Below, piece by piece: positions 2,236 through 47,692 of a DNA stretch of 64,000 bases; the stretch's first letter is position 1; each line of letters starts with the position of its first letter. A program made the translations under genes and the position numbers. The notes under the pieces were generated by a model. That model ran no database searches and was not told the origin of the DNA. It worked only from the letters and a program-made list of their open reading frames with translations. This stretch comes from Hyaloraphidium curvatum (lineage: Eukaryota; Monoblepharomycota; Hyaloraphidiomycetes; Hyaloraphidiales; Hyaloraphidiaceae), in NCBI GenBank assembly GCA_025558095.1, contig JAIVFI010000041.1, positions 124,001 through 188,000 on the forward strand, written 5' to 3'.

Positions 2236-3299
2236 ATGCCCCGCACCTTCCCGCAACCCGCCGGCCCCCCCGCTGCGCCGCAGTGGCCGGCGTGGGCCAC
2301 GCACGCGCCGCCGCCGCGCCCGACTGGGCCCGGCCCGCCCGTCGCGCACGTCGGCCCCCGCGCGCAGACGCCCGCGCCGCCCGCCCCGCTCTCGCCCGCC
2401 TCGCCGCAGTCGCCGACGAACTCGTTCGGCTCCGCATCGACGTGGTGGCAGCCGGGCGCCGCCGGCGCGGCTTTCCCCGGCTCCCCGGCCGCCGCGACAC
2501 TCGGCCGCTCGCTGCCCCCGACGCCCCCGCCGCCCGCCATCCCCGACAGCGGCCCCGTCGCCGTGCTGTACTCGGACGAGGCGCGCAGGCCGCGCTTCCT
2601 GTTCCGCCGCAAGGACAGGGTCGACGCCCAGCTCCGCGACCTCGATGCGGACGTCGCAAAGGCCGCGGACGTCAAGTACTCCAAGGACTTCCTCAGCAAG
2701 CACTCCAACTACGTCATGGCACGCGAGGGCAGGCGTGGGGACTTCAGGGGCTCCGAGGGCCAGTGTGGGTTGCTCCGTGGCTTCATCTCCGCATGTCACT
2801 GACCTTTCTCCGCCGTTGCAGGGATCTACTACGTGGGTGCCTCGCAAGGCCCCCTCGCCCGTGACTGGCAGACCTGCTGACACCCCTTTCCTCGCAGAAC
2901 AAGGTCAACGCGCGCATGCTGGCCTTTGCCCACCTCAACCCGGACCTCGTGAAGGAAATGGACAAGCCCGAGCTGACCGAGCTCGCCGACGCCTTCCTCA
3001 AGGCCACCGGCGAGGCGCCTCCCCAGGGCCCCCGCCGCCGCCGCGCCAAGTCCGCCGGCATCGGCCCGCGCGGCGGCCCCGCGGGCGGCGCGGGCGGCGC
3101 GGGCAAGCGCGGGCGCAAGAGCCGCAGGACGAGCACGGACGAGGGCAGCCTGCCCGACGTGGAGCGCTCCGAGTCGACCCCGGCGGTTGAGGCGCCGTTC
3201 CCGGGTGCAAGGGAGGAGAGGCCGTGGTACCTGTCGGGCAGGCTGGGCTTTGTGGGCGGCAACTTTGTCGTGCTGCCGGGGTCCGGCCACACGCTGTGA
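2236..3299 (+). CDS. Unknown proline-rich protein, 313 aa, with an 11-nt exon
   Basis: Not recognised. Three exons fit: 2236-2764, 2822-2832 and 2898-3299 (942 nt, 313 aa). Both introns (57 and 65 nt) start GTGGGT, carry CTGAC branch points and end in CAG. The middle exon is only 11 nt (GGATCTACTAC). If it is skipped, or if the competing GTGACT donor is used, the frame into exon 3 fails or the intron is only 37 nt. Residues 1-100 are Pro/Ala-rich and low in complexity. Residues about 105-175 are charged and helical (KYSKDFLSKHSNYVMAREG). Exon 3 begins with a leucine/aspartate helix (NPDLVKEMDKPELTELADAF), followed by an Arg/Gly/Ala-rich basic segment and the C-terminus YLSGRLGFVGGNFVVLPG. There is no signal peptide or membrane segment. 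The basic Lys/Arg clusters would suit a nuclear or scaffold protein, but this is only inference. Confidence 0.55.
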
Positions 3300-4120
3300 T
3301 GCGGGCCGGTTCCCGCTCAGAACGGGTGGACAGGAAACTCTTGGCAAGGTGGACGGCGGGAGGTGTACAGGCGACAGGTTCCCCCGAGCATGGGGACCTG
3401 GGCGTGGACGGCGAAAAGCTCCGACGCGGTTGCACAGGCGGTGTGATTGATACCAGTCAGGCGTTGATTCTGTATGGCTGAAAAATGGGCATTGCAGCGT
3501 TGCAGACAATCGGGAGGCGGTCGCGGCCATGTCCTCCTTCGCTTCGACAAGCACATCCTCGGCCGGCAGCTTCTATCCAGCGCCATGGACCATCTGGTGC
3601 CGTTTTGCTGAGCTTCGAGCGACGCGCGGTCACGCCTTGATGGACGGTCTGGCAAAGCGGCAGCTCTCCGCGTTCCGTCGGGCCCGGGGCAGGGGAAGCG
3701 AGCGCTGGAGGGACCTCGATCAGCACCGATTGACTTGTGCGGCCGATTGGCCGTCCCTACGAGCTGGATGGCCATCGGATCGCCGGCACTCGGGAGCGCA
3801 TACTGGGGGACTAGGTTCGGACGGACGAGGATACACACAGTTTGGAGTCGGCACCGCTTCATCCGCAGCTCTTCTGCTCGGCACAAGTGGGCACGTAACG
3901 AAGGAGGTCTGTGAGGCGGTAGGGATGTCGGCTCCGAGGACGTTCGAAGGGACCATTCGAAGGGACCTTTTCGGGGGAGCGGTCATCCCGAAGGTCCCTA
4001 CGGCCCGAGTTCAAAAGGACGCGCTCCCCCCCCCACCATCCTCCATCCACCCGTCCACCCAACAGACCAGCGCCGCCAGGCGCGCGCTGTCTGGTCTGAT
4101 CTGACCTCCCCTCCCTCCAG
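3300..4120. other. Intergenic region probably hiding a 5' exon of the next gene
   Basis: 821 bp. The last bases (ctgacctcccctccctccag) are a good branch point and acceptor, so the end of this stretch should be an intron. I looked for an upstream exon with a signal peptide ending in phase 2 and found none that convinces. A 12-bp tandem repeat lies at 3943-3967. Confidence 0.4.
3943..3967. repeat. Two direct copies of TTCGAAGGGACC
   Basis: TTCGAAGGGACC occurs at 3943-3954 and again at 3956-3967, separated by one base (13-bp period). Each copy starts with the palindrome TTCGAA. It could be a paired regulator site upstream of the surface-protein gene, or a replication slip. Confidence 0.45.
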
Positions 4121-5379
4121 GTGGCCCAACAACCTCACCCTCGATGCCGACTCGGGCTACATCAGCCTGCCCGGCTACACCGGAACCGTCGAGATCAACT
4201 CGTACACCCTGCCCACCTGCGTCAAGACCGACGGCTCTTCCAGCACGGCCTTCACGACCCAGGACTTCTGCTACCAGAACGGCCAGCTGAAGATCGCCAT
4301 CGGCGACGTGTGCAACGTCGGCGGCACCTACGCCTTCAACTTCGATACGAACTGCTTCCCCGGCGCGGCAAACACGAATACCTGCACGGGCAAGGTGCTC
4401 ACGGCCAACGCCCTCATCGGCACGCCCAACGCCTCGGGCGCCCTCGAGCTCGACCTCTGCAACGCCCTGCTGAACACGGTCGCCTCGGTCACCGGCGTGA
4501 TGGTTGCGGACAAGCCCCAGGGCTACTTCTTCGGCGACACCGTCCTGCTCACGGCCACCTTCACCTCGCCCGACCTGCCCATCTACGAGGCCCGCCTGAC
4601 CAAGATGATCCTCGGCCGCAACAAGGTCGAGCGCACGCCCAACATCGGCGCCGCCACCACCGTCACGCGCAATGTGAACACCACGCTCGTCGACTCGGCC
4701 GCCGGCCCCGCCGCCGTCGGTGCCCTCTCGACCCTCGCGGTGAACACCAACTTCACGTACCTGCCCACGGCCGACCCGAACGTCGTGGAGATGAAGGTCA
4801 CGCCCAACATGCTGCCCAAGCAGGCCGGCGTCGATTTCAACGACGAGTCGTTCCTGACCACGGACGACTTTGACTCGATCACCGTGAGTAGCTTACGGAT
4901 GCGGGCCGCACTCGATCGGTCGCTCACACACCTCCTCCCTCCAGGACTACACCTTCTACGCCACCTTCCGCATCTACTTCGACCAGCAGTCCGCCTCCGG
5001 CCAGCGCCGCCGCCGTCTCCTCGCCCGTGACGTGCAGGTGCCCGCCCCGGCCCTCCGTCAGACGACCACGAGCAACCAGAACGCCAATGCCGCCCTGACG
5101 GTGCCGCCGAACCCGAACGCGGTGCAGACCCAGCCCACCACCGCCCCGGTCGCCCCCGTCGCCCAGCCCGCCGCGGCCACCTCGTCGAACGAGGCCCTCG
5201 TCATCGCCGCCATCGTCATCGGCACCCTCGCCCTGCTGGCCGCCTGCTGCACCCTCATCGTGCTGCTCGCCATGCGCCGCAAGGACAAGAAGCGCGAGGA
5301 GGAGGACGCCTTCATCCGCCAGAGGCTCGTGCAGGGGCTCGACGCCAAGGCGCCCGCGTGGGGCACCGCCTCGGCTTGA
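4121..5379 (+). CDS. Single-pass membrane surface protein (first exon not found)
   Basis: Two exons are clear: 4121-4883 and 4945-5379, joined across a 61-nt intron (GTGAGT...CTCCAG, phase 0). Exon one follows an acceptor at 4120 and starts in phase 2, so an upstream exon with the start codon and probably a signal peptide is missing from the model. The ectodomain has about 300 residues and is rich in Thr, Asn and Cys, with several N-glycosylation sequons. Near its end is an Arg run (QRRRRLLARD) that could be a dibasic/furin-like cleavage site. A Thr/Pro/Ala-rich stalk follows, then one membrane helix (EALVIAAIVIGTLALLAACC) and a short basic and acidic tail (RRKDKKREEEDAF). The topology is type I, with the N-terminus outside. 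No family is recognised; it may be an adhesin or wall-associated sensor. Confidence 0.6.
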
Positions 5380-5632
5380 GCATTTTTTGGGGAGGGGAAA
5401 AGGGCCGCAGCCCGTGATCGGGCAATCTAGTGTAGACACCCGAGTTCAAAACTGCAATGCCTTGAACGTACTTTCCTGCTTCGAGCCCCGTCCGATGTCC
5501 AGTCACGCGCACGGTGGATGCAAAAAGCCCAGGAGAGAACAGACAAGGGTGCAATCCGCGTAAACGTAGGTGTCGAACAAGTCTTAAAATTGAACTCTCC
5601 TACAAACATCATGCGAATCACGCGGTTCGCAA

Positions 5633-6524
5633 CTAAGGCCTGGCACGAGCTTGAACGGTGGCGCGGATGTAGGCGAAAAAGGCCTCCTCGTCAAAGAGCT
5701 CGACAGCTTGGCCGCGAAGCATCTTGGACCAGTTGCGGGCGCTGACGATGAACAAAGGCAGGCGCCCGAGGCCGTTGGCCTGACGGCTGTTTTCGACCTG
5801 CGAACGGAGCGCCCGCTTGGCCTGCTCGACCGTGGTAATGCTGGGATCGTCCTCCAGGAGTGCATCGAGGTCAATGTCGGCCTTGGTCCAGACGATGCCG
5901 ACGGTCCGGTTGAACTCCGCGGCGCCCGTGGCGACGTCGTTGGCCACCTCCATCAGGCGGTTCGCCGAGACGAGGAAGATGGCATCGAAGGCATCTGCAA
6001 AGCACGTCAGAGCCCGCAAGCGGAGGTGCACAGGAGTGGAACCCACAGAGCTTCTTGTCGGCAAAGTAGGTCGCGGCGGGGTGGTTTACCGTCCCGGCGC
6101 CGGGAATGCCCCAAATCTTGAGCCACGGCAGAGTCGGGTGCGAGTACACTTGGATGTTCATCGTGGTTTCGGTGATGCCGACCGGAGCCGCGCCACGAGC
6201 CCCGTTTAGGATGCCGAGGAGCGCATTGACGAGAGAGGATTTGCCGACGCCGGAGGAGCCGCACAGGGCAATGTTGTACTGCGAGGAGCGCACACAGGAT
6301 CAGCAAGAGCGTGCCGGTGCCGGCGAAGGGAGACGCACGTAGTTCACCGGGTCAATGCCGAGAGCTTGCTGGGCTTCCGCGATGAGCTCGGCGGGGGTCT
6401 TGCCCTGGGCCGGCGCGACCTCGACGGGGCGGCTCGGCGGCTTGCTGAAGATGGAGACGAGGGTCTCGACGATCTTGAAGATAACGGGGGCGACGGGCAG
6501 GATGGCGGAAACGACGGATCCCAT
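5633..6524 (-). CDS. IIGP/IRG-like GTPase A, N-myristoylation motif, altered G3
   Basis: Three exons: 6339-6524, 6047-6278 and 5633-5994 (780 nt, 259 aa); the introns are 60 and 52 nt and all junctions keep frame. The family is the P-loop GTPases of the interferon-inducible (IRG/IIGP) type. G1 is GSSGVGKSS (residues 69-77), the G2-like block is PVGITETT, and G4 is WTKAD (175-179). The segment after G3 (HPAATYFADKKL) matches the IRG-like order. G3, normally DLPG, reads GIPG here (residues 119-122), so the Mg-contacting Asp is absent. The start MGSVVS fits the N-myristoylation consensus, as in mouse Irga6. The C-terminal helical domain of vertebrate IRGs is missing, so this is essentially a bare G domain. 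It is divergent from its paralogue at 6753. Role (membrane or vacuole targeting, defence) is inference only. Confidence 0.82.
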
Positions 6525-43143: not shown

Positions 43144-46100
43144 TCAGGCCTTGCCCTCCATCTGCTTGAGGTCCTCGAGCGCGTTGCCGGTCGCCTTCAG
43201 ATCGAACTTGTCGACGAGGAACTGGAGCGCAGCGGGGCGGACAAAGGCAGGGAGGCGGGGGCCGATCCTCACGCCGCGGAGGTTGAGGTGGAGCAGGGTA
43301 AGGAGGATGGCGACGGCCTTCTGCTCGAACCACGAGACGACGAGGTTGAGGGGGAGGTCGTTGACGCCGCACTTGAAGTGGTTGGCAAGAGCCACGGCGA
43401 TCTGGATTGCAGAATAGGCATCGTTGCACTGCGATGGAATGTCAGCATCCGTCAACCTTGCAATCCACCTGTAAGCTCACCTGTCCGAGGTCAAGGAGGC
43501 GGGGAATCCCGGTGTCGCCAATCGTCTGGTACTGCAGCTTGTCGCCGAGCACGCGGTACTTGCCGCAGCCCGAGGTGAGGACCACCGAGGTCGGGGGCAG
43601 GTTCTCCATCAACTCGCTGTAGTAGCTGCGCTCGCCCTCGAAGCCGTCGCAGCCGCCGACGTAGTAGAAGCGGGTGATGAGGCCCTTTTCGATGGCGCCA
43701 ATGACGGTGGGAGCCACAGAGAGCACCGTCTCGAGGGCGAAGCCGACGTTGTACGACTTGGCGGGCTTGCCGAAGGGGTCGAGAGGATACGTGTACTCGG
43801 TTTCACCCTCCTTGAATCCCGGCATTTGCTGTGCCTTCGCGATCACGGAGCTGAAATCGAAGCCGTTTATCGCCTCGCAGCCGGGAAACCCGACGGCGCC
43901 AGCGGTGAAAATGCGGTCCTTCATCTCCTCTTTCGGCGGGACGAGGCAGTTCGTCGTCATGACCACAGGGCCCGGGAAATGAGGAAATTCGACGGTCTGG
44001 AAGTGTTTCGGCGTGAGTGGAGACCTCCGAGAGGCCCAGTGCATGCAAACGCACCTGGCGCTGCCATGCGACACCAAAGTGACCAGCCAGGTTGCCGTAC
44101 TCGCGGAGCTTGGGGTAGCCGAAGGCCGGAAGCATCTCGCCGTGCGTGTAGACGTTGATGCCGGTGCCCTTGGTCTGCTCGAGCAGCTCCTCCAGGAACT
44201 TCATGTCGTGACCGGAGATGAGGATCGCCTTGCCGGGCTTGGGCGCCACGGGCACCACAGCAGGCGACTGAGCGCCGTGCGTGACGGTGTTGGCGCGGTG
44301 GAGCGTCCTGCGAGGAAGAGCGTTAGCGTGGGAGGGGGCTTCCCAACCCGCGCGGCATGCACTTACTCCATCGTGATGAGGTTGGCCTCCCCGCAGCGGA
44401 GCAGCATGCCGACCACCTTGTCCAGGTCGTAGGCGTCGGGTCCGATGAGGAACGCAAGGGCCTCGTTGACGTAGTCAAAGATTCGCGCATCCTCCTCGCC
44501 GAGGAGCACGGCGTGATCCGCGTACGCCGAAACGCCCTTCAATCCGTAAACCAACATCTCGGCGAGTCCCACGACGACGTCGTTCTTGACGGTGCGGAAC
44601 TTGGCAAGCAGGCCGACGAGCTCGCCCTTCTTGGCCAGCGCGGCGGGGTCCGTCAGGCCGACCGAGAGGTCGGGGATCGGGCACTTCTGCTGCGCGGCGC
44701 CGACGGCCTTGCAGATGTCGGCGTAGAGCTGGCCGCGGGACTTGGTGGCCTGGCCGACCTTGAGGATGTAGTCGGCGATCGCCTGGCTATCGAAGTTGAC
44801 GTTCGTGAGCGTCGAGAACAGGGCGAGCAGGGTGAAGCGGTCCGTCTCGCGGTCCTTGGCCTTGTCGGCGAGGGCGGCAGGCACGTTGCCCTTGGCGACG
44901 AGGGTGCGGATCTCGTGGTTGTACCAGCCGAGCCGCTTGACGACGTCGACGAGCAGATCCTGGAGGGCGGCGACCTCGGGGGTCTTGCCGCAGACGCCGA
45001 CGCTGGAGTCAGAGGAGCATCAGCATCCATCCCGAGCTCAAAGGAAAGGAGATTGCTCACGTCGTGCAGCCCTTGCCCTGGAAAGTCTGTTCACATTGCA
45101 TGCAGAGCATTTTCGCTCCCTCGAAGACGGCGGCGAGCGGCTTGTCCTGCTCGGCCTTGGCGGCGTAGTCCTTGAGCAGGTTCTGCGCAAAGAGGTTGAG
45201 GACAGGTCCGCGGGGAGAAAGGCGGCCGCGACCCACCTCGACGTCCACCTCCCTCGTGTACGCCTCCACGGTCCACCTGTTGGGCTTGCCGGGCACCATC
45301 TCCCCCTTGACCTCGGCCAGCTCCGCCGCGGCGGCCTGCGGGTGCACCCCCTTGACGGCGGCGATCGCTTCCTGGATCGACATCTCGACCGCCTGAGGGA
45401 CCACGCCGGCGGGGCCGGTGTAGACAAAGACGCCCTTGCTGTCGAGCAGGGCCTTGACGGCGGACTCGGACTTGCTCAGCGAGTCGGTGATGAGGCTGCC
45501 CTGGTCCATCGCGGCGGTAGAGAGCTGCATCCGCGGATCCGAGCGGTCAGCGATCCGACGCCACGCGCTGCATGCGGGCTAGGGGACCCACGTTGCACAC
45601 GCCCTGCGAGGCGTACTTCCCGAGCTCCTCCTCGAACACGAAGTCCTTGTCCGCGTGCCTGAACCCGTAGAAGAGCTCGATCGGCGCCACCTTCTTGCCC
45701 TGCGCCTTGAGCGCGGCCCAGTGCTGCACGAGCCCGCGGGCGACACCGATCCCCGAGCCGAGGCCGACGGCGACCACGGGCACGTCGGGCGAGGGCACGA
45801 GGATGGGGCTCTGCTGCACCTTGACCTGGACCTTGTCGCCGGGCTTGAGGGCGGCGAGGTACCCGGAGGCCAGGCCGACGAACTTCTTGGAGGGGTTCGA
45901 GAGCGTGGCCCAGACGTCGGCGGCGAAGACGAGGTCGATCTGGTTGGGCGAGGCCAGGGGGGAGCTGGCGATCGAGTAGTAGCTGAAAAGAAAGGGCGGG
46001 TCAGTGGGCGATAGATGCGCCCAGATCGCACGAGACGAACCGGGGCTGAAGCCTCGGCACAGTCGAAAGCAGCTGCTCGATTGACAACCTGGCCGACGGG

Positions 46101-47692
46101 AACTTTTCCATAGCATCCACGAACGAGAACACCTGCAAAGGGGGGAAAACAGTCAGCACCGAAGCGCTCGGAACCCGCACCCCGATCAACGCACCTCTCC
46201 GTTGGTCAGCTTCCCGTACTCGTTGCCCTCCTCCATCCCCTCGGCAACCTCCACCAGCCTCTCCTTCTCCTTGGGATCCGTCGCCATGACGCTCAGCGCC
46301 TCGAGGAAGCTCCGCGTCGCCAGACCCTGCAGCTCGAGCTCCTCGGCCAGCAGCCTGCGCACGGTGGTCGTGTGGCCCTGCGAGGGGTCGTCGACGCTCG
46401 TCACGCGCACGGACGAGTCGATGGTGGTGCCGCCAGGGAGGAGGATGGCGTTGTAGGCGCGGTCGACGAGCGCGGGGGGGTTGGTGGGCGTCACCTGAAG
46501 TGGGACAAACGGTGATCAGTCGATGGTGGGGCCCAATGAAGGGAAGGAGACGCACGAGGACGTGGCCCGCGACGGGGTAGCCGTCATTGGCCTCGATCGA
46601 CACCAGGCGGATCTCCTTGGCGGTGCCAGGCTTGGAGAGGACCTCGTTCGTCTTGACCGTCGCGGCCTCGAAGCCGGGCAGCGCGGCGGGCGAGAGGGCC
46701 GCGCCGGGGGCGGGCTGCACGCGGAACGAGACGGGGAGCGAGGCCGAGGTCGTCGCGGTCTGCCCGAGGGCGAACCTGGCCGATGGGAGAAGGAGATCAG
46801 CGATGATTTAAGGCGGGCTAACAGCGCGATGACGCACCAGATCGACTTGACGAACGGCCTGAAGGCGGCCTCGTGCCCGCTGCTCGAAAACTCGTCGCCG
46901 AAGCCGGCCGGCACGAGCTGCTTGGCGCCGAGCTCCTTCATGCGGGACTCGAGCCTCTTTGCGGCGACGTTGAAGTTGTCCTTGTTGGCCTTGTTTCCGA
47001 GGCCAAAGACGGCGAACTTGACGTTCTTGAGCAGGTGCGAGGCGGTCTGGGTGTCGGCGGACTCGAGGGCCTTCCAGAACGAGAGGGCTGCGAGGGATGG
47101 GAAGCGTTGATGGTGAGCGGCAGGCATCGGCGGTGATCAGGGGGAGGCGCCCACCGTTGTCCGGGAATTCGCCTGCAGGTGCATGGAAAAGGTGGGAGAA
47201 AAGGAGGACGGTTAGGTTCCGTTCGGCACAGCTGCAATAGCGGCACGACAAACCATTGTAGAATGTCGATGACATAAGGACGACGGTCCCCTCCTGCGAC
47301 AGGGCCGAGATGACGCCGCCGCGGGGGCCGGCCTGGGCGACAAAGTCGGCCATGCTCGAGACCCTGACCGCGATGCCGCGTGCCTTGGCGAACGAGGCGA
47401 GTACATGTGCGAATGCCTGCGTATTGCCGGTTTGCGATCCGTAGAGGACGAGCATGCGCGACGAGTCCTGCGGGCTTCCTGCGGGGGCGGCGGACGCGAA
47501 CGTGCGCGGGGCGCTCGTCTGGAAGGCGCGCACGGCGGCGGCGGTCGGGGCGCGGGCGAGGCGGGCGGGCGCGGGGCGCGCGCGCGGGACGGCGGCGGCG
47601 GGGCGCGCGGCATCCGCGGCGGCGGCGAGCGGGGCCGCGCGGGACGTCGCGCGAGACGCCGCGCGGGCCGAGGCCGACGACTTCGTCAACAT
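43144..47692 (-). CDS. Fusion of NADPH diflavin reductase with hybrid cluster protein (HCP), mitochondrial
   Basis: Twelve exons: 47254-47692, 47155-47172 (18 nt), 46838-47087, 46556-46775, 46195-46494, 46041-46132, 45592-45982, 45061-45524, 44367-45002, 44055-44307, 43481-43996 and 43144-43428, exactly 1288 codons (1287 aa). Residues 1-75 form an Ala/Arg-rich presequence (cleavage perhaps near RAFQTS). The flavodoxin runs from 80 ([10 protein letters not shown]), then a CPR-type FAD domain (PRYYSIASS) and an NADPH domain ([21 protein letters not shown]). HCP starts about residue 709: C711-x2-C714-x8-C723-x5-C729. Hybrid-cluster ligands are conserved: H992, E1024, C1038, C1137, C1165, C1194 and E1228. 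One exon (45061-45524) spans the end of the reductase and the start of HCP, so this is one polypeptide. Expected activity: NADPH-driven reduction of hydroxylamine or NO. Confidence 0.88.

Follow-up and report, generated by a model that had tools for sequence, protein, structure and literature searches.

A minus-strand gene of the fungus Hyaloraphidium curvatum joins a diflavin reductase and a class I hybrid cluster protein (HCP) in one reading frame. We put the probability at roughly 0.6 that its product is a single-polypeptide, self-sufficient HCP, with the reductase in front of the HCP and the whole probably imported into mitochondria. The gene lies in the window, the 64,000-nucleotide stretch of DNA that was analysed, and runs from a start ATG at 47692 to a stop codon that ends at 43144 (Table 1). 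We rebuilt it without using the exon list of an earlier, sequence-only reading and arrived at the numbers given there, 12 exons that close exactly into one frame of 1287 amino acids. All 11 introns are bounded by GT and AG and measure 52-81 nt. Automatic splicing alone gave a product of 1322 amino acids, which missed intron 1 and overextended two exons, and was rejected; the motifs NGEFPDN, KSIWFAL and PRYYSIASS set the sites. The microexon that encodes the NGEFPDN loop (18 nt, 47155-47172) is likely to be overlooked by automatic gene finders.

Table 1. Features of the fusion gene, in window coordinates.
Feature	Position	Strand	Remarks
Whole gene	43144..47692	-	12 exons, 1287 aa: presequence, flavodoxin, FAD, NAD(P)-like domain, class I HCP
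Mitochondrial-type presequence, residues 1-64	47501..47692	-	RAFQTS octapeptide-type motif at residue 55
Flavodoxin (FMN) domain, residues 82-230	46855..47449	-	PF00258, 92.7 bits, 3e-26; split by introns 1 and 2
Microexon 2, 18 nt	47155..47172	-	Encodes conserved NGEFPDN loop of FMN domain
FAD-binding domain, residues 274-481	45859..46663	-	PF00667, 111.8 bits, 5e-32; RYYSIASS and GLASGYL motifs
Divergent pyridine-nucleotide-like domain, about residues 505-660	45255..45789	-	SR..K.Y absent; TGP in place of CGD
Exon 8, 464 nt, residues 571-724	45061..45524	-	Reductase-HCP junction in one open frame
RWTVEAYT, residues 653-660	45255..45278	-	Resembles C-terminal FAD-stacking tail of diflavin reductases; internal here
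Reductase-HCP linker, residues 661-708	45111..45254	-	Boundaries from gene model, domain hits and alignment
Class I HCP domain, residues 709-1280	43168..45110	-	Prismane; [4Fe-4S] cysteines 711, 714, 723, 729

The sequence-only reading had claimed that a single 464-nt exon joins the end of the reductase to the first HCP cysteines, and exon 8 bears this out. Its frame is open from stop to stop (45057-45578 in the six-frame list of open reading frames) and contains the end of the NAD(P)-like domain, a 48-residue linker and C711, C714 and C723. As the exon runs through without a stop, it links the reductase end to three of the four [4Fe-4S] cysteines. The single-frame fusion is confirmed as real, far beyond chance. 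Separate genes for the two halves, a chimeric assembly or contamination would be highly improbable explanations: an HCP-only isoform could start at M709 (ATG), but nothing else favours such readings, and the junction lies inside one open exon. The 11 introns, a GC3 of 0.91, the fungal neighbours and a contig of 472 kb also argue against these readings, and we rejected all three on the open junction exon, the gene structure and the neighbours. The last are ordinary fungal genes, encoding an acyl-CoA oxidase, an amine oxidase, a palmitoyl-protein thioesterase, an F-box protein and a protein kinase. Third codon positions with 91% G+C are what is expected of coding DNA in this region, which has 65% G+C.

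A domain search of the 1287-residue product, which the sequence-only reading had proposed, found Flavodoxin_1, FAD_binding_1 and Prismane, with the NAD domain below threshold. The Prismane match (PF03063) covers profile positions 1-512 of 513 at 435.8 bits (2.9e-130), and the C-terminal part scores 629 bits against the NCBIfam hydroxylamine reductase model NF003658, whose cut-off is 367. The N-terminal cysteine spacing, Cx2Cx8Cx5C, is that of class I and lacks the class II insertion. We aligned the domain to the Desulfovibrio vulgaris HCP structure (chain 1e2u) and eight bacterial HCPs, naming the fungal ligands from the positions that we take to be the ligands in the D. vulgaris protein. Every one of the seven hybrid-cluster ligands that had been claimed could be placed, giving a predicted set of one histidine (H970), two glutamates (E994 and E1228) and four cysteines (C1038, C1137, C1165 and C1194). 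A tree with 92 rows gave the fungal domain a branch of length 2.23 and no reliable neighbour. The domain nevertheless keeps 99 of the 108 near-universal HCP positions, defined as columns at least 97% conserved in 91 other HCPs from prokaryotes and viral contigs, and this retention despite the long branch indicates constraint on the HCP. We looked for a close bacterial donor and found none: the best identity to any HCP compared is about 51%, the branch is long and the placement unsure.

The prokaryotic HCPs that we fetched for comparison were all single-domain proteins, and the HCP loci retrieved showed no diflavin-like frame. The Escherichia coli, Methylocystis and Acidithiobacillus records have a separate reductase-type gene after hcp, which makes a reductase the expected partner of an HCP. 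A FAD_binding_1 match was absent from four of five genomes that hold some of the closest HCPs. We also sampled three phyla (200, 247 and 249 genomes), in which 21, 219 and 207 genomes, respectively, had a Prismane match at E <= 0.001, many of these matches possibly being related CO dehydrogenases. Among the matches listed in these 447 genomes there was no frame of fused size, and the longest open frame with a Prismane match, 864 amino acids, is too short for this fusion. Full-length hcp also occurs on a 5.7-kb plasmid of Terrisporobacter petrolearius (NZ_CP154624.1), much of which it fills together with a cupin and a ferredoxin gene. On the Pelobacter propionicus plasmid pPRO1 (NC_008607.1), hcp lies beside nrfH/nrfA-type nitrite reductase, ric and flavorubredoxin genes, a neighbourhood that reads as a plasmid-borne nitrogen-oxide defence cluster. 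HCP genes on contigs filed as viral (five IMG/VR loci, L101-L105, and phage records MT837126, MT835472, MT837495, MT835843 and MT838097) are mostly full length and may be true cargo or host DNA.

The reductase half has Flavodoxin_1 followed by FAD_binding_1, the order of diflavin (CPR/CysJ) enzymes, and among solved structures its best matches are P450 fusions and CPR. It is only 25-29% identical to each other diflavin protein of the same genome and is thus no recent copy of any of them; on these values we rejected an origin by recent duplication from the CPR, TAH18-like, CYP505-like or MET10-like gene of the fungus. Two further diflavin loci, L007 (G000:C39:322291-325899) and its close relative L008 (G000:C19:170198-173830), were read as CYP505-like P450-reductase fusions, with P450-type sequence visible ahead of the reductase in L007.

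The earlier claim that a CPR-type NADPH domain accompanies the flavodoxin and FAD domains stood for the two flavin domains but not for the third. PF00175 scores 15.0 bits on the fusion protein, under the Pfam cut-off of 22, whereas the five other diflavin proteins of this genome all pass with 42-52 bits. Alignment with these proteins showed that SR..K.Y, residues that we take to hold the NADPH 2'-phosphate as established for rat CPR and P450 BM3, is missing from the fusion. The genome's CPR-like protein carries AFSRDQARKVYIQH at a site where the fusion has different residues, and the usual 2'-phosphate-binding residues are therefore missing. Where the other diflavin proteins have CGD or CGP, the fusion has TGP, so that the cysteine of CGD is lost. 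The six-frame list around 45300-45620 revealed no missed splice or other frame that would restore the NADPH motif. The domain is thus recognisable but non-canonical and divergent, and with the 2'-phosphate residues lost and PF00175 under its cut-off, hydride transfer is not assured.

Two readings of this divergence were weighed. The nucleotide site may have decayed, in which case the reductase half would have ceased to use NAD(P)H itself, and its FAD/FMN part would either be structural or pass on electrons from a different mitochondrial donor, such as ferredoxin or its reductase. The sub-threshold NAD domain and the loss of SR..K.Y and CGD favour decay, which we nevertheless consider unlikely, given that the protein keeps the motifs for both flavins, the GxGxG turn (VGLGSGIG), YGFR, DFVFEEEL and a putative internal tail, RWTVEAYT. 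The kept flavin motifs, turn and putative tail fit a changed specificity, for NADH, at least as well as they fit decay. The donor of the reductase may accordingly be NADH, or its specificity may be relaxed, instead of strictly NADPH.

In diflavin reductases, an aromatic residue of the C-terminal tail stacks on FAD. RWTVEAYT may be such a tail, as it fits the pattern R-Y-x-x-D-V-W with E and Y substituted; its counterparts in the genome's other diflavin proteins are RYVADVFA and FRRDVWG, and the pattern has two matches in the roughly 128,000 six-frame residues of the window. If RWTVEAYT is the tail, the reductase would be complete, with its tail internal and the chain continuing into the HCP. 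P450 BM3/CYP505, NOS and pyruvate:NADP+ oxidoreductase likewise carry a catalytic metal domain and an FMN/FAD reductase on one chain. In these enzymes the reductase lies at the C terminus and its tail ends the chain, as also seen in L007 and L008, whereas in the fungal fusion the reductase comes first and the tail motif runs on into the catalytic domain.

Consistent with the mitochondrial-type presequence proposed earlier, the N terminus is rich in arginine (11 K/R against 2 D/E in residues 1-78), and RAFQTS matches the processing motif R-x-F-x-x-S. These features make mitochondria the likely location of the enzyme. In bacteria, HCP disarms nitric oxide and hydroxylamine, and our best reading of the fusion is that it would be a self-sufficient, probably mitochondrial NO/hydroxylamine reductase. 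Electrons would pass from NAD(P)H through FAD, FMN and the [4Fe-4S] cluster to the hybrid cluster, where NO, and perhaps hydroxylamine, would be reduced. The hybrid cluster is typical of anaerobic or facultative microbes and most fungi are aerobic, which counts against this explanation. Class I HCPs are described as having no known physiological electron donor, although NAD(P)H would be energetically able to reduce them (PMC10210160). The HCP part might instead act mainly in S-nitrosylation signalling or in another reaction (nitrate to nitrosonium, or peroxidase). S-nitrosylase and related activities have been proposed for HCPs of E. coli and algae (PMC7412212, PMC10210160), but the roles are debated within those same papers and no sequence feature of the fusion favours them, leaving this alternative to NO/hydroxylamine detoxification quite improbable.

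Compared with the class I HCPs of Desulfovibrio vulgaris and Methanothermococcus, the fungal protein shares the Cx2Cx8Cx5C spacing, all hybrid-cluster ligands and a full-length Prismane domain; those proteins are single-domain and have no known reductase, whereas the fungal one adds a fused diflavin reductase and a presequence. E. coli Hcp-Hcr, reported as a high-affinity NO reductase in 2016 work as cited in PMC7412212, is similar in that a pyridine-nucleotide reductase supplies the HCP. There, however, a class II HCP is served by a separate, non-diflavin NADH oxidoreductase with FAD and [2Fe-2S], whereas the fungal protein pairs a class I HCP with an FMN/FAD reductase on the same chain and has neither the separate [2Fe-2S] Hcr nor the class II cysteine insertion. 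According to a table footnote from 2021 (PMC8003979), the alga Cyanophora paradoxa has an HCP fused to 'sulfite reductase', again an HCP joined to a redox gene in a eukaryote; the footnote names no subunit, order or sequence, and the architecture may be the same if the flavoprotein subunit is meant. The sequence-only reading was not aware of any description of this exact domain order. That view agrees with its absence from the prokaryotes sampled and with our finding no description of a diflavin-HCP fusion in fungi in the open-licence literature on HCP or hydroxylamine reductase with fungi; going by the footnote, however, the idea of an HCP-reductase fusion is not without precedent. The fusion is a new arrangement of known modules.

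The fusion is the sole HCP that a genome search found in the 31.9-Mb assembly. The same genome has a flavohemoglobin gene (G000:C28:52500-55500) that encodes a globin and an NAD-binding reductase. Flavohemoglobin is an NO dioxygenase and the expected aerobic NO-removing enzyme, and the fusion would be its low-oxygen partner. The genome search found no siroheme nitrite reductase and just weak, below-cut-off matches to copper nitrite reductase (NirK), a missing match in an assembly not being proof of absence in either case; a role of the fusion in nitrate assimilation is less likely on this account. A Rieske match was rejected as a nitrite reductase because FAD_binding_3 and DUF2470 lie next to it. 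The search recovered a single siroheme protein, a sulfite reductase beta subunit of the MET5 type (G000:C11:561500-567500, 3091-6000 on the minus strand), which is preceded by a flavodoxin domain and by sequence resembling pyruvate oxidoreductase. As this was the sole siroheme protein found and no siroheme nitrite reductase was among the matches, nitrate assimilation may be missing from this fungus.

Fungal denitrification has been described through NirK and CYP55/P450nor, without HCP (PMC7412212). We tentatively propose, at somewhat less than even odds, that this is the first self-sufficient class I HCP from a fungus and that it acts in mitochondria as an NAD(P)H-dependent NO reductase distinct from P450nor. 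The FAD-stacking tail of its diflavin reductase would then run straight on into the HCP, and the fusion would show that diflavin modules are able to serve as class I HCP donors. A natural covalent fusion names a type of donor for class I HCPs, whose donor is stated to be unknown (PMC10210160), and makes electron transfer, substrate and products measurable within a single protein. Should it reduce NO in mitochondria, fungi would possess, in addition to P450nor, an enzyme that removes NO and forms N2O; this would bear on fungal resistance to nitrosative stress and on sources of N2O.
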